Below, piece after piece: positions 30,427-44,506 of a stretch of 64,000 nt of DNA. The notes beneath the pieces were generated by a model. That model had not been told where the DNA came from. It worked only from the letters and a program-made list of their open reading frames with translations, and did no database searches. Positions within the stretch are counted from its first letter, which is position 1. Every line of letters begins with the position of its first letter. Position numbers and translations under genes: made by a program. This DNA is from Rosettibacter firmus (GTDB taxonomy: Bacteria > Bacteroidota > Ignavibacteria > Ignavibacteriales > Melioribacteraceae): assembly GCF_036860695.1 (NCBI RefSeq), contig NZ_JAYKGJ010000004.1, positions 1 to 64,000 of the forward strand, written 5' to 3'.

Positions 30427-31512
30427 TTAATTATTCTTCCTAAATTCTTCCATAAATGTTACAAGTGTTTCTACACCTTTTTTAGGGAAAGCATTATAAA
30501 TTGAAGCACGAATTCCACCAACACTTCTATGACCTTTCAAACCATCAAGATCTCTTTTCTTTGCTTCTTCAATAAATTTCTTTTCCAATTCTTCGTTTGG
30601 TAATCTAAATGTTACATTCATAAGTGATCTATCTTCAGGGACAACGGTTCCTCTATAAAATCCATCACTTGAATCTATTGCATCATATAATATTTTTGCC
30701 TTTTCTACATTTCTCTTATACATTTCATCAAGACCGCCCATATTTAATAACCATTTAAATACCAGTCCAGCAATATAAATACCAAATGTTGCTGGAGTGT
30801 TATAAAGAGAATTATTTTCAACATGAACTTTATAATTCAAGTAAGTGTGAAGTTCGTCAGAAGATCTTTCCAGTAAATCTTTTCGAATAATTACAAGAGT
30901 TACACCAGCAGGTCCAATATTCTTTTGTGCTCCTGCATAAATTAATCCATACTTATTCACATCTATTTTTTTATGAAGGATGTCTGACGATGCATCACAT
31001 ACCAGAGGAACATTTCCCACTTCTGGTTCTGTTTTCCATTGAGTACCATAAATTGTATTATTCGATGTAAAGTGCACATAAGAAGCATCAGGATCTAATT
31101 TTAGTTCAGACTGTTTTGGTAAACGTGAAAAGTTTTCACTTTCAGTTGAAGCAGCTATGTTTACAGTGCCAACTCTTTTAGCTTCTTTCATCGCTTTTTT
31201 TGCCCAGGAACCTGTAATAATATAATCAGCTTTATTTTTTGGTGGCATTAAATTTAAAGGCACCATAGAGAACTGAAGTGTAGCTCCTCCCTGAAGAAAT
31301 AAAACTGCATAATTATCATTGATATCAAGAAGTTTTCTTAAATCTGCTTCTGCTTCTTTAATTATCTGTTCAAATATTTTACCGCGATGACTCATTTCCA
31401 TTACACTCATACCGGTTCCCTTATAAGAAAATAGATCCTTCTGAGCTTCGAGTAATACTTCTTCTGGTAACACAGCTGGACCAGCACTAAAGTTATAAAT
31501 TCTTTTTTCCAT
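30427..31512 (-). CDS. serC: Phosphoserine aminotransferase
   Basis: A 361-residue PLP enzyme of serine (and pyridoxal phosphate) synthesis, converting 3-phosphohydroxypyruvate and glutamate to phosphoserine. The start motif is YNFSAGPAVLPEEVLLEAQ; LFLQGGATLQFSMVPLNL binds cofactor phosphate; GLIYAGAQKNIGPAGVT (about 190-206) contains the Schiff-base lysine; GHRSVGGIRASIYNAFP closes the active site. Normal length. AGAGGAATAAT precedes the ATG. It lies directly downstream of a DUF1015 gene, an association frequent in Bacteroidetes and relatives. Confidence 0.98.
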   Translation of the reverse strand: MEKRIYNFSAGPAVLPEEVLLEAQKDLFSYKGTGMSVMEMSHRGKIFEQIIKEAEADLRKLLDINDNYAVLFLQGGATLQFSMVPLNLMPPKNKADYIITGSWAKKAMKEAKRVGTVNIAASTESENFSRLPKQSELKLDPDASYVHFTSNNTIYGTQWKTEPEVGNVPLVCDASSDILHKKIDVNKYGLIYAGAQKNIGPAGVTLVIIRKDLLERSSDELHTYLNYKVHVENNSLYNTPATFGIYIAGLVFKWLLNMGGLDEMYKRNVEKAKILYDAIDSSDGFYRGTVVPEDRSLMNVTFRLPNEELEKKFIEEAKKRDLDGLKGHRSVGGIRASIYNAFPKKGVETLVTFMEEFRKNN

Positions 31513-31548
31513 ATTATTCCTCTTTTATTTATTGTATCATAATAATTT

Positions 31549-32781
31549 TTATATTAAATGAATTAACAAACCATCTCTCAGTTTTGGTTCAAACCATGTT
31601 GATTTTGGTGGCATAATTTCATCAGCATCAGAAAGATTCATTAAATCATCCACTGTTACTGGATACAATGAAAATGCAACTTCGGCATTTCCATTATTTA
31701 CATGTCTTTCTAATTCTTCTGTCCCTCTAATACCTCCAATAAAATCGATGTTTTTATCTGTACGTGGATCTTCAATACCGAGAACAGGATTTAATAAATA
31801 ATTCTGTAAAATACTAACATCAAGATTATCTGTAACTTTATTTGTTGTTTTTATATTACTATTTGCTTTCAACAAATACCATTTTTTATTTAAGTACATA
31901 CAAAAAGTTTTAGGTTCTACTGGTTCTTTCTGATTGGTTTCTGTAATTGTAAAGTTATGTTTAATCTTACTTAAAAAATCATCTTTATTCATATTTAATT
32001 TATGAATTATTCTATTATATGGCATTATTCTCAATTGATTTGCCGGGAAAAGAACGGCAAGAAAATAATTATATTCTTCATCACCAGTGTGATGTGGATT
32101 TTGAGCTTTTTTAATTTTTTGAACCCGGCTTGCACTTGCAGCACGATGATGTCCATCAGCTATATAAAGATTTTTAACCTTTGATATTTCTTCAATGATT
32201 ACTTCACTTATATCATCTGTTAAAATCCATATTGTGTGCCTTATGCCATCTATAGCAGTAAAATCATAAATTGGATTTGATTTACTTATAAAGTTATTTA
32301 CAATATTATCTATATTTGGAACAGGACGATAAGTTAAAAATACAGGTCCGGTTTGTGCCTCAGTAAAAAGAATATGATTTGTTCTATCATCTTCTTTATC
32401 TTTTCTGGTTTTTTCATGCTTTTTAATAACATTATTATCATAATCTTCAACTGAAAAAGTAGCTGCAAGACCTACCTGAGAGTGATTCCCCATAATTAAA
32501 CGATAAACATAGATACATGGTTTTTCTTCAACAATTAAAGGGGCTTCATTTTTTAATCGTTCTAAATTTTCTTTTGCTTTTTTATATACATCTTCAGAAT
32601 AAACATTTTCGACTTCTGGCATTTCTATTTCTGCACGTGTAACTCTAAGGAAACTCAAAGGATTCCCTTTAGCTAAATTTGATGCTTCTTCTCTGCTTAC
32701 AACATCATAAGGAACACTTGCTACAAGATGAGCTACTTTTTCGTTTGGTCTTAATGCTTTAAAGGGACGAATAATTGCCAT
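31549..32781 (-). CDS. DUF1015 family protein
   Basis: A 410-residue cytosolic protein beginning MAIIRPFKALRPNEK and containing VPYDVVSREEA, NHILFTEAQTGPVFLTY and the strongly conserved YIADGHHRAASA motif with DRTNHI upstream. These are DUF1015 hallmarks. The His/Asp cluster suggests a metal- or nucleotide-dependent enzyme, but no function is established. The start at 32781 follows a GGAG site; an upstream in-frame start (32814) lacks one. It is paired with serC, so a link to serine metabolism is plausible (inference). Confidence 0.93.
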   Translation of the reverse strand: MAIIRPFKALRPNEKVAHLVASVPYDVVSREEASNLAKGNPLSFLRVTRAEIEMPEVENVYSEDVYKKAKENLERLKNEAPLIVEEKPCIYVYRLIMGNHSQVGLAATFSVEDYDNNVIKKHEKTRKDKEDDRTNHILFTEAQTGPVFLTYRPVPNIDNIVNNFISKSNPIYDFTAIDGIRHTIWILTDDISEVIIEEISKVKNLYIADGHHRAASASRVQKIKKAQNPHHTGDEEYNYFLAVLFPANQLRIMPYNRIIHKLNMNKDDFLSKIKHNFTITETNQKEPVEPKTFCMYLNKKWYLLKANSNIKTTNKVTDNLDVSILQNYLLNPVLGIEDPRTDKNIDFIGGIRGTEELERHVNNGNAEVAFSLYPVTVDDLMNLSDADEIMPPKSTWFEPKLRDGLLIHLI

Positions 32782-32908
32782 ATTAACTCCAAAAAGGTAA
32801 ATTTTAAAATGCAAAATAGCATATAAAGGTATTATTGTAAAACAGAAAAGAAATATTTAAGGAATATTTTATAATTATAAATTATTATTAATATTTATAC
32901 ATATTTAA

Positions 32909-34807: not shown

Positions 34808-37800
34808 TTATCCATTTTCTCCTGCAATACGAGCAATTTGTAAAAGATAAAATCTTAGTAACTCCTGATTTTTCGTGCTTAATGGTTGATCTTCAATTTT
34901 GATAATAGATTCAACTTCTTTTAGTGCACGAATTATATTAATTGGTACTTCTGTTAAACCTTGAGATATTATTGAAAGATATTCAAAAGCAGCTGTTAAA
35001 AATTGCTGCATATTATCATCAAATGATGCTTTAGTTAGTAACTTGGGAGATATTTTTATCTTCTGTGGATTAAACAATATTTCTTTTACAGGAACATTTG
35101 CCTGAAGTGAATTCAATGCTATAGCTAATTCAACAAAACTCTCTACTCTCTGGTAGATTGGCTCTTCAAGAAATTCCCATATTTTTGCTCTCCACTCTGA
35201 AATTTTTACTGGAATTAGAAGTAATCTTTCGACTTCTTTTACCCATTTAGCATCAACTTTTCCACTTATTTGACTCAATAATTTTTCAATATCTGTATTA
35301 AAAAGTTCTGGTTGTAATAATACTGCTACATCAGGTCTGAGTGTTGGTAGTAAATCAGGAATAAATTTATTTTCATCAAAAAACTCTGTAACATTCAAAC
35401 CATGTCTTCTTAACAATTCTTTCTGGAAAAAGTATAAATATTTATTGAGAGAATCCATATCTTCTCTTAAAGCAATAAGTGCACTATTACCCGCTGGAAA
35501 AGCTTTTTCGAGTTTGTTAAGATAAATTAAATCGATATCCTGATAGATTCTTAATGTATGAAGAATTTCATAAACTGGTAAATTTGGAAGAATTCTATCT
35601 GAAATTAAAGATTCAGTTTCTCCTTCTGGAAATTCTTTTTGAGAAAAATTATTTAATGCTCGGAATAATCCTGTTGTTAATTGATTAATCCCGAGTATCA
35701 TTGTTTGAGATTGATTATGAGCTATTGCTCTTAATAAACTTCCATAGCGACTTAATGGAATTGTACCAGCAATTCTTTCAAGTATTTTTTGACCAATTAA
35801 TTCTCCAGCATTTTGTCCTGGTCTTACTGTTGGTCTATCTCTTAAAGCAGGAATTGTTCTTCCAATAAAATAAGAAATAATATGAATGCCAACTACATCT
35901 TCTTCTCTACCATATAAAATTTGTCTAAAGTTCTCGGTATAAATATTAAGAAATACATCATAAATAGAATCTTTTTTCCCGATTGTTAATCTTTCTAATT
36001 CCTGTAAACCCCTTGTTTTGTATTGTAATCTGGTTTCTGAGAGTGGTTCACCAGCTCTTAAAATTTCTTCTCTATAAAATTTCTGAGTTTCTTTTACGTG
36101 ATAAATTAACTGAGCAAAATTATGTACTGGAAGATATCGTACTTTTTCTGATATATTACTTTGAAATGTTAATAAATCCTTACAGGAGTAAACACCCATT
36201 AATGGAGTCGAAGCATACTCAGTACTTCTTTTGGTTGATGCTTCAAGATATTTTGAAAATCTTTTATTAGCATCTTCAGATTCAACAAATAATGGTTTTC
36301 CTACTTCCTGTGAATAATATCCACCCTGTCTTTGCATTGGTTCACCACTTCCCATTTTCATTCTAACTTTACCTATCAAGTTGTGAGAAGCAAGCCATTT
36401 CATCAGTTCAAATTTTGCTGTTTTGTAGAGATACATACTGTTTGGTTGTCCAACCTGTTGACTTAGATCTGAACCAGCAACAAAGATTTCAGTAATAATT
36501 TCTGCAAAACGTTCGTGTGTTTCCTGATTCATTCTTCTACTTTGAAGTGAATATTCCCAGACTTTATTTAAATAATTCTCAAGATTTTTTACCGATTCCA
36601 AATCTTCAAACAATGGAACTATCCATATGTTAGGTATTTCTATATTATTATTTTCTCTAAGTATCTGTTCTCTTTTAGAATATAATTTACGATCCAGAGA
36701 TATTAATGCTTCTGGTTTTGTTGTCATACTTACCTGAATAGCCAATACCATTCCAGGATTTCCGTATCTTCCTGATATTTCATTTATTTCGTTTATATTA
36801 TGAACTGTAGTATCTATTGCAAATTGATCCTGTGCAGTTATTAATTTCTGATGAATTCTGGGAGTTACAACAAATCTCTTTAATAGATCTCGGTACATTC
36901 CAGCTTCTAAGAAGAATTCTTTATTTTTAATATTTCTTTGAATAATTGGTATTAATGAATACAAAGTTTTTCTTAATTGTTTATTCAAAGCAAAATAATG
37001 TTCGAGTGTTTCTCTTCGTCTATGACGTAGTTCTAACATTTTTCTTTCGAGACGGTCGTTATGACGCCACATTTTAGTAAGTGGATCTTCAGCAAGATGT
37101 AATTTAATTCCAAGTTTTCTTAATCCACTCATCTCGATATTAAAAGGCAGTGTTCCCCTGTATCTTTTTTCCAGTTGATGAGTAAGCAATGTGATTTGAT
37201 TTAATAGATCAGCAAACTTTTTATTGCTTTGTGGTAATTTTTTAATCTCTTCAACTAAATAGCTATCAATATTAATTGTTCTGTCAATATTTAAAATCAT
37301 TTCAAGAATTTTTGCCTGTCTTACAACATTTTCCATTAAAATAGCAGAAACAAGACTGTGTCCCTGACCCGAAGGTCTATTACTACCATCCCAATCACCC
37401 CAGAACGATAAGAACACTTCAAAAGGTGAATCTGTATGAAGAGCCATATAATTTTCTACTGCCAATAAAGAATTTAAATCAAGGATTAATTCCTGTGGTT
37501 CTTCACTCGAAATAATTGGTACATTCTGACCAAAATATTCTTTAACAATTTCACTTTTTAATTTTTCAAATAATTCTGAACTGATATTGTGATTTTTTAT
37601 TAAAGCATCAATTAATTTCTCGAATAGTTGTTCTGTTTTAATAGAATACATTTGTGTAGGATGAACAGTTCTATCATACAATCGTTTTTGAAAAGCTTCT
37701 TTTCTTCTCTGCAAATCATCCTTGTAAAATTCTCTTTCTAAAATTTCTGTTATATTTTTTCCGTCGTGTGCAAAAGAGAAATTAATAAATTCATTAATTA

Positions 37801-40417
37801 TGGTTGCTCTATCTTCATATCTTTTTCTAAACAATGAAAGTCGTTCAGGTAAATATTCTTTAAGGAAATATTTATAATTTTTTTCAATATCAATTTCTTT
37901 GTTCAAATATTTTACAGTATCATAAAAATATGTTTTAATATTATTCTTAATCTCTTTTTCTATGGAATCCCATTTTTGTAAATCATAAGTAGTATCTATT
38001 ATTTTTTTAACTCCAAGCGGAATTACATTAAATTCTCTTTTGTTATAATTAGAAGCTTCTTCGTCAATGAGTCTATTTAAATCAATCAAAACTCTTCGTG
38101 TTTTTTTCAATAAATTTTCTGCAGTATCTGTACCACCCAGAGTTAATCGGAATGTTTTTCTTCCTGCATCAAAACCTTTTTCGGTTCTGGCAAAAGTTGA
38201 GAGTGGAACTACACCTATTCCCTGTCTTGCTAATCCAGAAGACAACCAATCCAGAGAAAGTCCAGCAGGTAATTTTTCAATTATCATTTGTGGATACATA
38301 CTTCCAGAAGGGGGAGTAATTGAAATTTTATATTTGTTTCTTACTTCAGGTAAATTTTCTACAGCGTCTAATAAGGCTTTACTTCTTTCTTTGAAAATTT
38401 TATTTCTTAATCGATAATATGAATCAATTATTTCTGCATTATTACGATAAAACAAATAAGATAAAAATATTGCTGCAATGTTTGGTTTTATTGTTGAATT
38501 TATTTTTTTCAATCTATTAAAAATTTCTTTATGACGAATTTCTGCTACAGATAATCTTGCACCAGCAAATGAATCTGTTTTAGACATTGAATGGATTGTA
38601 ATTATATAATCAGCTTGTTTTCTGGTAATATATCCTTCTCTTAAAAGTTCATCACTCAGCTGTCGAATAGTTTTTATTTGTTTAAGATCTTCTGATGGAG
38701 TAACGTTTTGATAAGATAAATCATCAATTATCAATATATCATTTTCAAGAAGCCATTTAATAAGATTTTTAATTTTATCTTCATTAAAAATTTTACCTGT
38801 AGCATTATGTGGATTATTAATAACTATTGCACCATAACTATTCCATTTATTATCCATTATTAATTTTTCTTTGACAGCATTTTTTATCTTCTCTACATCA
38901 ATATCATAATCATCTGTAAGAGAAACCACTTCAACTTTTGGGAAACAATGTTCATAAGTCCAGCTTAAATCTGGTATTATAACTTCTTTTATTCCGCAGT
39001 GGAAACCAAGTAAACTTAATGCAGTTCGAGATGAGCCACTTATTACCAGACAATTTTCTTTTTGATATTCTGGATGATAATTGAGAAAAGAGCTCAGGTA
39101 ACTATTGATTAGTTCATTATAAAAATCTTCGGAATTAATGTTTTTAAATAATTCATCAAGTAAATCAAGAGCATTTATATCTATTAATTTATCATAAATA
39201 TAATCATTAATGTTTTTCAGTTTGAAATTATCATTTAAATTGATTTTATATATGTGTTTTTCAAGAATATTTTCAATTGTTCTACTCTGTCTTAAAATAA
39301 TTTCTTCTGTTCTTTTTTCTAAGTTTTTAATTTTATCGTAAATAACTCTGAATCCTGTTTCTTTAATAAGTGGTTTTTCATATTCGGCTTCTACAACAAT
39401 ATCATCAAATTTCTCATCGTTATTTAATTCCTGTAGATTTTCTTTTAGGATAAAAGCGAGTAATTCGATTTCTGTTGAAGAAGGAGTTCCCTTTAATTGA
39501 AAATGTATTGTTTCTAAAACTTTTATAAAATCTGGATTACCAAGCACAAAATTTAGAGCAATATTTCCAAGATTTTTTGATAGTACTTTTGGTGATATAA
39601 TTCTAATTACTCTACTCATCATTTTAGCTTCGCGGGCAAGCGATAGATGATTTGGGGCATCGTTTGCTTCTACAAAAAATAGTGGATAATCCAGACTTAA
39701 TTCACGTAGCTGTCGTCTTGTAGTTTCGTTTGTAATTTCCCCCAATAAAAGAAAATTAGGTTTATCTAAATTCTCTTTTAATTTACTTTCAAGTAATGAT
39801 ATTAAATTTTCTTCATCAGTAAGATTATAAAACCTCAGATTTTCAAATTCATATAAATGTTCAGGTAGATTGATATTATACAAAAAAATATTAGCTGGAA
39901 GGTATAATAGATATTCTGATATCGAATGAAAAAATATTCTCAATGTTTCATATATACCGCCAGATGTAATTATTATTTCTCTTTTTCCTGTTTTATCACC
40001 AATATCATATGTTAATGGTTCGTGTTGTTTATTGACGAGCCAATCATTAAAGTAATTAATTATAAAGTGTGGATTTGTTCTAACGAAACCACCACGAGGT
40101 GAATAAGGTGCACTTTTTTCAATTAAACGCACTAAAAATTCTAATTTTGATTTATCTTTTACATCCCTGCCTAATTTTTCTAATATATTATCAAGATTTT
40201 TAATTGATATTACTTCTTCTTTAATATCAATTCCCAGTGCCATTCTAAGATATGCAGAATATAACCTTTCATCCTGAACAGGATTCCCTATATGAAAATT
40301 AACTCTATCTTCTGGTGGAACATTTGAAGCAACTGTAGCTTCGCTTATTTCAGAAACTTTAGCAGCTTTTACTGGTTTTAACTGAAAAATATTTATTGAA
40401 TTTTTTACAGTCATCAT
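34808..40417 (-). CDS. Giant fusion: tandem aminotransferase-like regions plus PEP-carboxylase-like region
   Basis: A 1869-residue cytosolic protein without signal peptide. Residues about 50-330 look like a degenerate fold-type-I aminotransferase (SPRGGFVRTNP, IIITSGGIYETLR, SPKVLSKNLGNIALNFVLG). Residues about 420-790 form a fuller one: ISGSSRTALSLLGFH, VINNPHNATGKIF, ILIIDDLSYQ, and the PLP motif SMSKTDSFAGARLSV with Lys613. From about 830 it resembles phosphoenolpyruvate carboxylase: DRTVHPTQ (His919, like the TAHPT motif), WGDWDGSN (1006-1013), VPLFEDLESV (1267-1276), VAGSDLS (1313-1319) and LLRAIAHNQSQTM (about 1561-1573). The usual GRGG loop and the DIRQ region are altered (GSGEPMQRQGG; KLHLAEDP), so carboxylase activity is doubtful. 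If active it could channel PEP to oxaloacetate to aspartate. The gene overlaps the SPFH gene by one base (TAATG). Confidence 0.8.
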   Translation of the reverse strand: MMTVKNSINIFQLKPVKAAKVSEISEATVASNVPPEDRVNFHIGNPVQDERLYSAYLRMALGIDIKEEVISIKNLDNILEKLGRDVKDKSKLEFLVRLIEKSAPYSPRGGFVRTNPHFIINYFNDWLVNKQHEPLTYDIGDKTGKREIIITSGGIYETLRIFFHSISEYLLYLPANIFLYNINLPEHLYEFENLRFYNLTDEENLISLLESKLKENLDKPNFLLLGEITNETTRRQLRELSLDYPLFFVEANDAPNHLSLAREAKMMSRVIRIISPKVLSKNLGNIALNFVLGNPDFIKVLETIHFQLKGTPSSTEIELLAFILKENLQELNNDEKFDDIVVEAEYEKPLIKETGFRVIYDKIKNLEKRTEEIILRQSRTIENILEKHIYKINLNDNFKLKNINDYIYDKLIDINALDLLDELFKNINSEDFYNELINSYLSSFLNYHPEYQKENCLVISGSSRTALSLLGFHCGIKEVIIPDLSWTYEHCFPKVEVVSLTDDYDIDVEKIKNAVKEKLIMDNKWNSYGAIVINNPHNATGKIFNEDKIKNLIKWLLENDILIIDDLSYQNVTPSEDLKQIKTIRQLSDELLREGYITRKQADYIITIHSMSKTDSFAGARLSVAEIRHKEIFNRLKKINSTIKPNIAAIFLSYLFYRNNAEIIDSYYRLRNKIFKERSKALLDAVENLPEVRNKYKISITPPSGSMYPQMIIEKLPAGLSLDWLSSGLARQGIGVVPLSTFARTEKGFDAGRKTFRLTLGGTDTAENLLKKTRRVLIDLNRLIDEEASNYNKREFNVIPLGVKKIIDTTYDLQKWDSIEKEIKNNIKTYFYDTVKYLNKEIDIEKNYKYFLKEYLPERLSLFRKRYEDRATIINEFINFSFAHDGKNITEILEREFYKDDLQRRKEAFQKRLYDRTVHPTQMYSIKTEQLFEKLIDALIKNHNISSELFEKLKSEIVKEYFGQNVPIISSEEPQELILDLNSLLAVENYMALHTDSPFEVFLSFWGDWDGSNRPSGQGHSLVSAILMENVVRQAKILEMILNIDRTINIDSYLVEEIKKLPQSNKKFADLLNQITLLTHQLEKRYRGTLPFNIEMSGLRKLGIKLHLAEDPLTKMWRHNDRLERKMLELRHRRRETLEHYFALNKQLRKTLYSLIPIIQRNIKNKEFFLEAGMYRDLLKRFVVTPRIHQKLITAQDQFAIDTTVHNINEINEISGRYGNPGMVLAIQVSMTTKPEALISLDRKLYSKREQILRENNNIEIPNIWIVPLFEDLESVKNLENYLNKVWEYSLQSRRMNQETHERFAEIITEIFVAGSDLSQQVGQPNSMYLYKTAKFELMKWLASHNLIGKVRMKMGSGEPMQRQGGYYSQEVGKPLFVESEDANKRFSKYLEASTKRSTEYASTPLMGVYSCKDLLTFQSNISEKVRYLPVHNFAQLIYHVKETQKFYREEILRAGEPLSETRLQYKTRGLQELERLTIGKKDSIYDVFLNIYTENFRQILYGREEDVVGIHIISYFIGRTIPALRDRPTVRPGQNAGELIGQKILERIAGTIPLSRYGSLLRAIAHNQSQTMILGINQLTTGLFRALNNFSQKEFPEGETESLISDRILPNLPVYEILHTLRIYQDIDLIYLNKLEKAFPAGNSALIALREDMDSLNKYLYFFQKELLRRHGLNVTEFFDENKFIPDLLPTLRPDVAVLLQPELFNTDIEKLLSQISGKVDAKWVKEVERLLLIPVKISEWRAKIWEFLEEPIYQRVESFVELAIALNSLQANVPVKEILFNPQKIKISPKLLTKASFDDNMQQFLTAAFEYLSIISQGLTEVPINIIRALKEVESIIKIEDQPLSTKNQELLRFYLLQIARIAGENG

Positions 40418-41735: not shown

Positions 41736-42413
41736 ATGGACGAAAAAGAAATTCCAAATATTTTTGATGACAGTCAACCTGATTATGATAGAAAAAACTT
41801 TAAAGCCATCGAAAGGTCAAGAAGTGATTATATTATATCAGGATTGTGTGCTGGTCTGGGCAAATATTTTAATATTGATGCATCATATATTAGATTGTTT
41901 GGCATATTGAGTTTATTAATAGGTTTCCTTCCTGTTTATTTTTATTTAATTGCCACTTTAATATTTCCCCCTGAAACTTCAAAGCAAACCATTAGTGATG
42001 AAGATAAACTTAGAATAAACAAAAAAAATTCTTATACACTACTTGGTGGAACATTAATGTATATAAGTTTAGTATGGCTATTGATCAGTACTGGAATAAT
42101 GAAAAAGGAAGAATTACTTTATTTCGATTCTATACTGAAGAATTTGACTTTATTAGTTTTTGGCGTTTACTTAATTTCAAAAAATTTTCACGAAAGTGTT
42201 TATAATAATAGATCCATTGCTTCTAATGAAAAAAGAATAATTCTGGGAGTATGCAATACTTTAAGTAATTATCTGAAAATTGATGTAATAATTATTAGAG
42301 GATTCTTTATAGTAGGCAGTTTGATTAGCACAGGTATTCTAATATTATTATACTTATTTCTCTACCTGATTTTAAAATCCAGAAAGGTCATTATTAATGA
42401 AACTCAATTATAA
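41736..42413 (+). CDS. Membrane protein with two PspC domains
   Basis: A 225-residue protein with two PspC-type units. The first spans about residues 25-80 (RSRSDYIISGLCAGLGKYFNIDASYIRLFGIL, then a transmembrane helix). The second spans about 160-220 (NEKRIILGVCNTLSNYLKIDVIIIRGFFIVG, then a helix). Two further helices lie between them. PspC is a phage-shock envelope-stress factor that can act with PspA/PspB; no other psp gene is here. The internal duplication suggests a self-contained pair. It overlaps the next gene by 17 nt. Confidence 0.9.
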   Translation: MDEKEIPNIFDDSQPDYDRKNFKAIERSRSDYIISGLCAGLGKYFNIDASYIRLFGILSLLIGFLPVYFYLIATLIFPPETSKQTISDEDKLRINKKNSYTLLGGTLMYISLVWLLISTGIMKKEELLYFDSILKNLTLLVFGVYLISKNFHESVYNNRSIASNEKRIILGVCNTLSNYLKIDVIIIRGFFIVGSLISTGILILLYLFLYLILKSRKVIINETQL

Positions 42414-42897
42414 AATTTTGACAGGCATATCATTAGCAACTTATGGAATTTTATCCCTATTAAGTAATGGAATAATAAACTTACACAATAAAGTGATAAT
42501 TGGTATTACACTTATTATTTATGCCCTGCCTTCAATCTATATCTCATTAAATTTAAGTAAAAGAAATATGATTGTGGTTTCATCAATAGCCTTTTTTGTG
42601 GGAATTATTTTTCTGCTTGATAACTCTTATAAAATTTATTCCCAGACAACTTTAATTTTCCTTTTAACATTTATTGTTGGTTCAATATTTTTCCTATTAT
42701 TTATAGACAATCCAGAAGAAAAATATTTACTGATTACAAGTATCTTTTTATTTATAATTTCTTATCCTGCTGTAAAATTGTTTGAATATATTAATGATAG
42801 TTTATTCTTTTATTATTACAATAGAATAGAAAATATTATCTCGCCTGTGATATTACTTTTAATAGCTGTTAATATTTTTATAAAAAGGAATGATTGA
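42397..42897 (+). CDS. Small polytopic membrane protein
   Basis: A 166-residue protein with about five hydrophobic helices and short loops; no family is recognised. AAAGG lies upstream of its ATG, inside the end of the PspC gene (17-nt overlap), so it is coupled to it. The two probably act together in the inner membrane. Its stop abuts the stop of the convergent anti-sigma gene with no intergenic space. Confidence 0.75.
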   Translation: MKLNYKILTGISLATYGILSLLSNGIINLHNKVIIGITLIIYALPSIYISLNLSKRNMIVVSSIAFFVGIIFLLDNSYKIYSQTTLIFLLTFIVGSIFFLLFIDNPEEKYLLITSIFLFIISYPAVKLFEYINDSLFFYYYNRIENIISPVILLLIAVNIFIKRND

Positions 42898-43923
42898 TTA
42901 TTTAGACTTACCAGTTTGAGGAAAATTACCAATAAGATAATTTTGTGCTGAGGGAGTTGGTGAACCTGTACTGGATTCAATAGTAACTTTTAAAAATTCT
43001 ATATTTTCCTTAGGTATAAATGGGAATGAGTTTATATGTATATATTCATTACTGCCTGGATTATAAACTCCCATTGAATAAGAAATTCCTTTGCTTACTG
43101 CCCACAATTGATATGCTTGATTTGGAGGAAGTGGTTTAACATTTTTAAATTGTATTAATCCTTCTCGAACATCAAATGAAAGAAATACTCTCGCCATTGC
43201 TTTATCATTTGGATCAACACTATTCAAGTTTACGATTATTACATCTTTGTAATTAAAAAATTCTATAAATGAAAGATAATTGTTTATAAAATTATTTGTC
43301 CTGCTAAGTTCACCTCTAAACAAAGTGATATCATGATTTAATTCTTCAATTTGCCTATTTAACGATTCAATGGAAGTAAAAGAATAATAACTTAGAATTG
43401 AAAACAAAACTATTGTAATCAATAAAGCAATCCAGCCTATAATACTACCAGATTTCTCTTTTACATGCGGTAATGTTTGTTGAGGTGTAATATATTGAAG
43501 TGGTTTTTCTGGAATAACCGAGCCATTAATTTTTGCTTGTTTTTCTTTCTCTTTTTCTTCTTCTTTAACTATTGTAGACTTTGTAAGATTTGACAATTGA
43601 AAAGTTGGCTTTTGTGGTTTTTCTGCATAGTTATTAAATGTTTTGCCCATCAAAGTTTTTCTTCGTTCTTCTCGTATTCTTGTTTTAATTTCATCCTGCA
43701 GGCTAATTAATTTTTTTGCAACTTCATCTTTAAGTGATTCCTTTGGAGTTTCTATCTCCAGAATTGTAGGTATGAGTGATACAATATTTTGCAATTCACC
43801 CAGTGCACCTTCAGGGAGTTCGCCACCATTATCAACATAATCTTTAAACTGTATAAAATTTTCTTTATCCATACAGCCAATTGCAAAAGCTGCAATCATT
43901 TCATGTACAGCAGTATCAGACAT
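42898..43923 (-). CDS. Anti-sigma factor, RskA-type
   Basis: A 341-residue single-pass inner-membrane protein. Residues 1-90 form the cytosolic anti-sigma domain (VHEMIAAFAIGCMDKENFIQFKDYV) without the His/Cys zinc motif. A charged linker leads to a transmembrane helix at about 160-182. The periplasmic C-terminus (about 215-340) matches the anti-sigma-K/RskA domain: FKNVKPLPPNQAYQLWAVSKG. It lies 4 bp after the ECF sigma gene and is its cognate inhibitor by context. Release may involve regulated proteolysis, for which the RseP at 12672 is a candidate (inference). Confidence 0.92.
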   Translation of the reverse strand: MSDTAVHEMIAAFAIGCMDKENFIQFKDYVDNGGELPEGALGELQNIVSLIPTILEIETPKESLKDEVAKKLISLQDEIKTRIREERRKTLMGKTFNNYAEKPQKPTFQLSNLTKSTIVKEEEKEKEKQAKINGSVIPEKPLQYITPQQTLPHVKEKSGSIIGWIALLITIVLFSILSYYSFTSIESLNRQIEELNHDITLFRGELSRTNNFINNYLSFIEFFNYKDVIIVNLNSVDPNDKAMARVFLSFDVREGLIQFKNVKPLPPNQAYQLWAVSKGISYSMGVYNPGSNEYIHINSFPFIPKENIEFLKVTIESSTGSPTPSAQNYLIGNFPQTGKSK

Positions 43924-43927
43924 CGAT

Positions 43928-44506
43928 TTACTCCTTTGTCAAATTATCTCTAAAGCTGTGAAGTGCATTCATAACTTTACTTCTAACAGTTTCAACAGGT
44001 ACATTTAATTTATCTGCAATTTCATCAATAGTATATCCTTCATAATAGGCTAAATGAAGAACATATTTTTGTGTATCTGTTAATTTGGATAAAGCTCTTT
44101 CTACTTTGGGCTGCAAACTCATTGCTGTATTTAAATCGAGGCTATCCATATCTGGTAAAAATGTTGGAATTATAAAATAATCTTCATAATCATCATCATA
44201 AACTTGAGATGCAGAAAGTGAATTTCTACTTCTTCGCAAAGTATCAACAGCTTTATTTCGTGCAAGTGTTACAAGCCAGCTATAAACATTCCCATGTCTA
44301 AAATCAAATTTGCTTGTTTTACGCCAGACAATAACAAAAACATCAACCAGAACTTTTTCAGCCGTTGATTCATCCATCACAATTTTTTTAATGATTGTGT
44401 ATAAGAGTGGTGAATATCTATCGTACAATTCTTCGAGAGCACGTGATTCAAAATTTGCTATCTGTTGCATTAATTCTAAATCTGTTAGCTCAGTGAACTT
44501 GCCCAT
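43928..44506 (-). CDS. ECF sigma factor, RskA/SigK-type
   Basis: A 192-residue extracytoplasmic-function sigma factor. Region 2 (about 25-95) has LYDRYSPLLYTIIKKI, DVFVIVWRKTSKFDFRHGNVYSWLVTLARNKAVDTLRR. Region 4 (about 135-190) has LSKLTDTQKYVLHLAYYEGYTIDEIADKLNVPVETVRSKVMNAL. AGAAGGAAT precedes the ATG. The following gene is its anti-sigma. It likely autoregulates the pair and an envelope- or oxidative-stress regulon; the targets cannot be read from the window. Confidence 0.96.
   Translation of the reverse strand: MGKFTELTDLELMQQIANFESRALEELYDRYSPLLYTIIKKIVMDESTAEKVLVDVFVIVWRKTSKFDFRHGNVYSWLVTLARNKAVDTLRRSRNSLSASQVYDDDYEDYFIIPTFLPDMDSLDLNTAMSLQPKVERALSKLTDTQKYVLHLAYYEGYTIDEIADKLNVPVETVRSKVMNALHSFRDNLTKE

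Follow-up and report, generated by a model that had tools for sequence, protein, structure and literature searches.

What does a bacterium gain by joining aminotransferase-like domains and a diverged phosphoenolpyruvate carboxylase (PEPC) in one polypeptide of 1869 residues? The question is raised by a gene in the 64,000-nucleotide stretch of Rosettibacter firmus DNA analysed here as a whole (the window). The reading that we favour, to which we assign a probability of about 0.4, is that the gene encodes a membrane-docked carboxylase-aminotransferase belonging to a two-gene metabolic module.

An earlier note, made from the sequence, had described one uninterrupted gene with two aminotransferase-like regions and a PEPC-like half. 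The single ATG-started frame on the minus strand bears this out, and the quoted motifs are found at the quoted residues (K613 in SMSKTDSFAGARLSV, H919 in TVHPTQ, WGDWDGSN from 1006, VPLFEDLESV from 1267 and GSGEPMQRQGG at 1356–1366). The three-part domain reading was correct, and profiles and predicted structures now support it (Table 1). What the note missed is the gene immediately upstream, coding for an SPFH/Band-7-like protein, which is the strongest new clue.

Table 1. Features of the fusion gene and its partner, with positions in the window and the basis of each assignment.
Feature	Position	Strand	Basis
Fusion gene, 1869 aa	34808..40417	minus	Single uninterrupted ORF from ATG (40417) to stop codon (34808-34810)
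Part A, residues 1-330, degenerate fold-type-I aminotransferase	39428..40417	minus	hhalign and AF2 model
Tyr105 in YxPxGG, proposed equivalent of Tyr70 of the second subunit	40103..40105	minus	60/60; aligns with aminotransferase YAPADG
Lys309 in LKGTP, proposed to anchor the distal carboxylate, close in the loop to the position of Arg292 of the second subunit	39491..39493	minus	60/60; hhalign loop register
Linker, residues 331-404, partly low-confidence, long helix	39206..39427	minus	AF2 model
Part B, residues 405-795, catalytic class I/II aminotransferase domain, own N-terminal segment absent	38033..39205	minus	PF00155, hhalign
Lys613, PLP lysine	38579..38581	minus	60/60; register from hhalign
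Part C, residues 796-1869, PEPC-fold domain	34811..38032	minus	AF2 model, Foldseek, VIA
His919, E. coli PEPC His138	37661..37663	minus	60/60
Glu1271, E. coli Glu506, metal ligand	36605..36607	minus	60/60; hhalign register
Asp1317, E. coli Asp543, metal ligand	36467..36469	minus	60/60; hhalign register
Altered glycine loop GSGEPMQRQGG, residues 1356-1366	36320..36352	minus	Arg1363 = Arg587 kept; Arg581 position Ser
Arg1528, E. coli Arg699	35834..35836	minus	60/60; mapped by eye
Arg1563 in LLRAI, E. coli Arg713 in LRAI	35729..35731	minus	60/60; mapped by eye
SPFH/Band-7-like partner gene, 328 aa, one N-terminal hydrophobic segment	40417..41403	minus	Directly upstream, 1-base overlap with fusion gene

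The frame is a real gene, because 12 of 57 other related genomes share its architecture, in one piece in 11 of them and split across contigs in the twelfth. With the window's own genome included, the fusion is carried by 13 of 58 related genomes, 12 times as one open frame of 1837–1922 residues and once contig-split; the weaker matches in the other related genomes cover part B alone, mostly at 23–38% identity and in frames about as long as an ordinary aminotransferase. In named genomes, 129 fusion loci were confirmed by a scan, the best 80 of which were kept, and in 62 of these 80 the frame is uninterrupted and longer than 1800 residues, at 43–75% identity. After removal of a wrong-strand frame (L122) from the 61 sequences kept, the alignment holds 60 sequences, window included; its invariant positions, the catalytic motifs among them, number 86 of 800 in the N-terminal half and 131 of 1075 in the C-terminal half. 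The promoter and terminator scan gave results at chance level, and literature searches among open-licence papers found no published description of such a fusion system.

The aminotransferase half

Part A consists of the N-terminal segment and large domain of an aminotransferase, without the PLP lysine and without the C-terminal small domain. Its residues 16–330 align by hhalign with aminotransferase residues 10–290 (E 0.0021, at a probability of only 13%), and in this register the position of the PLP lysine is occupied by proline in 40 of the 60 sequences and by lysine in 7. Part B is the catalytic domain. Pfam PF00155 covers residues 441–764 with 66.2 bits (cut-off 19.7) and is matched by all 60 aligned sequences at E up to 0.1, while hhalign pairs part B with aminotransferase residues 44–383 (E 7e-19, probability 99%). 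Residues K613, N538, D566, Y569, R621 and R757, which we take to correspond to Lys258, Asn194, Asp222, Tyr225, Arg266 and Arg386 of the aminotransferase, respectively, are each present in 60 of 60 sequences. Aligned directly with each other, A and B match weakly (E 0.016).

The AF2 model of residues 1–800 (mean pLDDT 88.7, pTM 0.86) has fold-type-I aminotransferases as its top structural matches, in agreement with the PLP fold proposed for part B; LysN (2egy) scores Z 29.5 over 376 aligned residues with an rmsd of 3.1. This match, for which the end points alone are given, spans model residues 5 to 785 and skips about 400 residues in between, which would be mostly part A. A match of this span to a single aminotransferase, with 376 residues aligned, is expected if part A supplies the N-terminal segment that part B is missing. 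Residues 1–800 look like an in-chain pseudo-dimer, in which A has no PLP lysine and B keeps the PLP-site residues that were checked; this putative geometry is drawn from the span of the structural match and from the profile alignment. Both regions of the earlier note are aminotransferase-like, and A is indeed degenerate, but they appear to be complementary parts of one pseudo-dimeric enzyme rather than two aminotransferases.

In aspartate aminotransferase, Tyr70 and Arg292 cross the dimer interface, and Tyr105 and Lys309 of part A are their candidate counterparts, judging from the aligned motifs. The PLP site in B would be completed by the dead part A, standing in for the second subunit of a homodimer, with the FHIGNP segment, Tyr105 and probably Lys309 reaching the active site of B. 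Part B resembles the class I/II fold-type-I aminotransferases (PF00155; LysN 2egy and the Thermus and Thermotoga aspartate aminotransferases) in being complete at the checked PLP-site residues. The ordinary enzyme is a homodimer, whereas in the fusion one chain appears to replace the dimer, with the dead A as the proposed interface donor. According to PMC9309667, class I/II aminotransferases require a homodimer with the active site at the interface; if the pseudo-dimer holds, the fusion offers a single-chain solution to the same arrangement.

One relative carries the aminotransferase half by itself. In genome G054, which also has a copy of the fusion, a stand-alone A+B gene of 652 residues (L053:1858-3816, minus strand; 36% identical over B) without the PEPC half lies downstream of a prephenate-dehydrogenase-like gene and a DAHP synthase gene; in NCBIfam the DAHP synthase scores over the cut-off and the prephenate-dehydrogenase-like gene under the cut-offs. 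This setting suggests that A+B is a working aminotransferase, the stand-alone form of which has perhaps been recruited to tyrosine synthesis. The longer open frames from 294 genomes of the class yielded no further gene of this kind; some of the shorter frames are probably truncated at contig ends.

The PEPC-fold half and its active site

Sequence searches did not detect PEPC in part C. The window protein has no PF00311 or PF14010 match in Pfam; for the whole protein, Pfam, PDB sequence searches and the 25 of 47 NCBIfam families listed named aminotransferase-type (PLP) families alone, and a profile of the C-terminal half run against PDB sequences gave a single chance match (E 0.48). The fusions of two relatives match PF00311 with 20.1 and 18.4 bits (E 7.2e-5 and 4.9e-4), below the cut-off of 22.4. 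At E up to 0.1, PF00311 matches 3 of 44 sequences and PF14010 4 of 44, which is little above noise, as the unrelated family ANG-1 matches 7 of 44 at a similar E-value. Alignment by hhalign with ordinary PEPC profiles was at most suggestive (P 0.099 with 12 sequences and 0.023 with 38).

Sequence detection having failed, the assignment of a PEPC fold was decided by fold search with the predicted structure. The AF2 model of residues 795–1869 has a mean pLDDT of 85.3 and a pTM of 0.87. All 50 Foldseek rows listed for it are PEPCs (E 9e-12 to 7e-9), with low TM-scores (0.28–0.38 by query and 0.33–0.53 by target), as expected if the chain is long, flexed and diverged or if the match is partial. PEPCs take the first 23 of 50 VIA entries, from Z 23.1 (8cj8; 639 aligned residues, rmsd 5.8) to Z 18.8 (E. 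coli, 1jqn), and include the archaeal-type enzyme 3odm (Z 21.9, 485 aligned, rmsd 3.4). The best non-PEPC fold reaches Z 14.7, and a second E. coli PEPC entry (1fiy, Z 14.6) does no better; the folds ranking next are the barrels of malyl-CoA lyase and malate synthase. The PEPC barrel proposed for the C-terminal half is thus what the predicted model matches best.

Active-site positions were mapped through the E. coli alignment of an ordinary relative, with hhalign used for the region of E506, D543, K546 and R587 and the remainder placed by eye. Glu506 and Asp543 are the metal ligands of E. coli PEPC, and for residues other than His138, His579 and Arg587 the PEPC roles used here are general background. 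In addition to the residues in Table 1, the equivalent of Arg587 (R1363) is kept in 59 of the 60 sequences, with one gap, and R1694 in all 60. Three positions are replaced: Lys546 by Q1320 (60/60), His579 by methionine or leucine at 1355 (58/60) and Arg581 by S1357 (54/60). The DIRQ strand, which carries Arg396, reads TPRIHQ, and R1187 (60/60) may stand in for that arginine. The altered GRGG loop and the missing DIRQ, both pointed out in the earlier note, are real and, across the 60 sequences, family-wide. The replacing residues are themselves conserved in the family, with E1359 in 60 sequences, M1361 in 57 and Q1362 in 59 alongside Q1320, S1357 and R1187; loop residues 1359–1361 have a pLDDT below 50 in the model. 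His138, His579 and Arg587 have been reported as important for E. coli PEPC (PMC11832675). With PEPC (PF00311; archaeal type PF14010, 3odm) the fusion has in common the fold and the equivalents of His138, Glu506, Asp543, Arg587, Arg699 and Arg713, and it differs in the replacement of Lys546, His579, Arg581 and DIRQ, in the fused aminotransferase and in the paired SPFH-like gene.

The substrate of this site is uncertain because Lys546, His579 and Arg581 are replaced; together with the change from DIRQ to TPRIHQ, this means that PEP may not be the substrate. In the favoured reading the fusion product would be a single chain with two active sites, the barrel of which, keeping the catalytic histidine, the metal ligands and three PEP-site arginines, would carboxylate PEP or a close analogue. 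The product would be a four-carbon 2-oxo acid, which the aminotransferase would convert to an amino acid, to aspartate if the oxo acid is oxaloacetate. The channel from PEPC to aspartate suggested in the earlier note is possible and unproven, and what speaks against it is that several PEP-site residues are replaced and that an ordinary PEPC is kept by 16 of 50 fusion genomes.

The 50 fusion genomes come from several phyla, and in some of the 16 the ordinary PEPC is present as pieces at contig ends. Among the related genomes an ordinary PEPC is found in 3 of 13 with the fusion and 16 of 45 without (p 0.51). In the phylum sample it is present in 1 of the 15 genomes that carry the fusion, compared with 275 of the 380 that do not (Fisher p 3e-7), a difference confounded by ancestry. 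In the window's own genome neither PF00311 nor PF02436 is matched, and there are two ATP-PEPCK matches. A role of the fusion as a general replacement for PEPC was considered and rejected, since genomes with both enzymes exist.

A close rival to the coupled carboxylase-aminotransferase, and a quite plausible one, is that the PEPC-fold half is catalytic on a different substrate. It would be a carboxylase, lyase or phosphotransfer enzyme dependent on a metal, and part B would aminate the oxo acid that it produces; the module would then make an amino acid or an amino-lipid precursor at the membrane. The family-specific conserved replacements in the PEP-binding region favour it, as do the coexistence with ordinary PEPC and the lyase and synthase barrels among the next-best folds. 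Against it, the six equivalents shared with E. coli PEPC make up most of the PEP and metal apparatus, and the best structural matches are PEPCs and not the smaller lyases.

That the PEPC-fold half has instead become a non-catalytic sensor or regulator, responding for example to aspartate or PEP levels and acting on the aminotransferase or on the SPFH-like partner, is unlikely. PEPC is an allosterically regulated enzyme, three PEP-site residues have been lost, and the Pfam PEPC models match few of the sequences, and those weakly. However, the catalytic histidine and both metal ligands are present in 60 of 60 sequences, and the C-terminal half is more conserved than the N-terminal half (79% against 68% to the nearest relative).

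The membrane partner, neighbourhood and distribution

Of 58 related genomes, the 13 with the fusion, and no others, also have the partner gene; the chance of identical sets would be 3e-13 if the two were independent, a figure to be read with the relatedness of the genomes, which are not independent draws. Among the best 80 loci, 69 have it upstream in the same orientation; the distance is no more than 250 bases in 63 and no more than 650 in all 69 except L129, where the fusion frame is broken. A wider count of 72 in 84 loci takes in four loci from outside the named genomes, two of which appear to duplicate named ones. The contig begins inside the fusion gene in nine of the 11 loci without an upstream partner, and there the partner may simply lie on the next contig; L095 and L122 are real exceptions. 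A search of these eleven genomes found a partner copy in eight, including those of L095 and L122, where it is inside another contig, and none in three.

Of 47 partner sequences, 26 match PF01145 (Band_7) with E-values of at most 0.1, the best being 3.8e-11, and the window copy has no Pfam match of its own and no PDB sequence match. By hydropathy alone, all 8 partners sampled from the 47 have their maximum in the first 35 residues. In the N-terminal hydrophobic segment, and for the 26 sequences also in the Band_7 match, the partner family is like SPFH/Band-7 proteins (flotillins, stomatins, HflK/C). NfeD is often reported as the operon partner of SPFH proteins (PMC13086221), whereas here the partner is an enzyme. 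In two Bryobacteraceae (L221 and L222), the partner gene is located away from the fusion and follows a gene for a protein of 656–675 residues that gives the impression of a B12-binding radical SAM-like protein.

The co-occurrence of fusion and membrane-scaffold protein suggests a two-gene system that has not been described. The SPFH-like protein, through its N-terminal membrane segment, would dock the fusion enzyme at the membrane. A more specific version, in which an SPFH-like protein of membrane microdomains carries, as a horizontally mobile machine, an enzyme that builds an oxo acid, by carboxylation or otherwise, in the remodelled PEPC barrel and then aminates it in the pseudo-dimeric aminotransferase, the product being something other than bulk aspartate, is put forward tentatively. 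If the favoured reading is true, this would be a natural fusion that joins a carboxylase fold to transamination in one chain; it would also add to the PEPC fold another branch, one whose active site has changed, and provide an SPFH-like protein with a client of its own.

Besides the partner, no consistent metabolic neighbour was seen in the neighbour scans. These covered 55 of the 68 nearest genes on the downstream side and 46 of 91 on the upstream side. The genes were chosen as longest frames, and where loci are rich in G+C some of them are perhaps spurious; with an E-value limit of 1e-8, no family recurred in more than two downstream or more than three upstream scanned genes. The large neighbour clusters other than the partner include frames antisense to the partner and common gene families. 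Beside the operon, positions 41736-44506 of the window hold a PspC gene, a gene without assignment, an anti-sigma-like gene (RskA_C) and an ECF sigma factor gene; PspC is absent from the 25 families listed in the neighbour scans of other loci.

These PspC and sigma factor genes, together with the patchy distribution of the fusion, could be taken to indicate an anti-phage defence or stress module assembled from enzyme folds and an SPFH-like protein, and an SPFH protein of Bacillus subtilis has been linked to the phage-shock system (PMC8581546). Such a module is very improbable: in PADLOC neither the fusion protein nor the partner of the window has a match at E up to 0.1, and the neighbouring families are mostly ordinary metabolic and housekeeping genes.

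The labels found among the best 80 of 129 loci, full-length relatives included, comprise among others Ignavibacteria or Melioribacteraceae, Bacteroidota, Chloroflexota (Anaerolineae), Acidobacteriota, Calditrichota and KSB1, and the architecture is constant under five phylum labels, which are the submitters' own and refer to bins that may be contaminated. A quick tree was made from 49 of the 60 aligned rows, with L002-L012 left out. In this tree the Chloroflexota form one supported clade amid Ignavibacteriota and Bacteroidota rows, and the Acidobacteriota rows need at least three changes. The pattern fits several transfers, with bin contamination as another possible source, and the two-gene module has probably passed from phylum to phylum. 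The records of the 80 named relatives listed all derive from metagenomes, but an assembly artefact or a chance joining of genes is refuted by the same stop-free architecture in many independent assemblies, including the single-contig genome G009. In the phylum sample, the fusion frame is broken in the assemblies of G114 (L149, L151) and G391 (L150, L152), through either decay or assembly error.

Other aminotransferase genes lie close to the fusion in places. In the window, positions 30427-32814 hold a DUF1015 gene followed by a class V aminotransferase gene on the same (minus) strand. In a few loci with different labels (L105:13693-14910, L070:9839-11056, L124:14819-16051 and L110:6781-9141) a class I aminotransferase-like gene is found downstream of the fusion, and in two loci it starts 89 and 113 bases after it.
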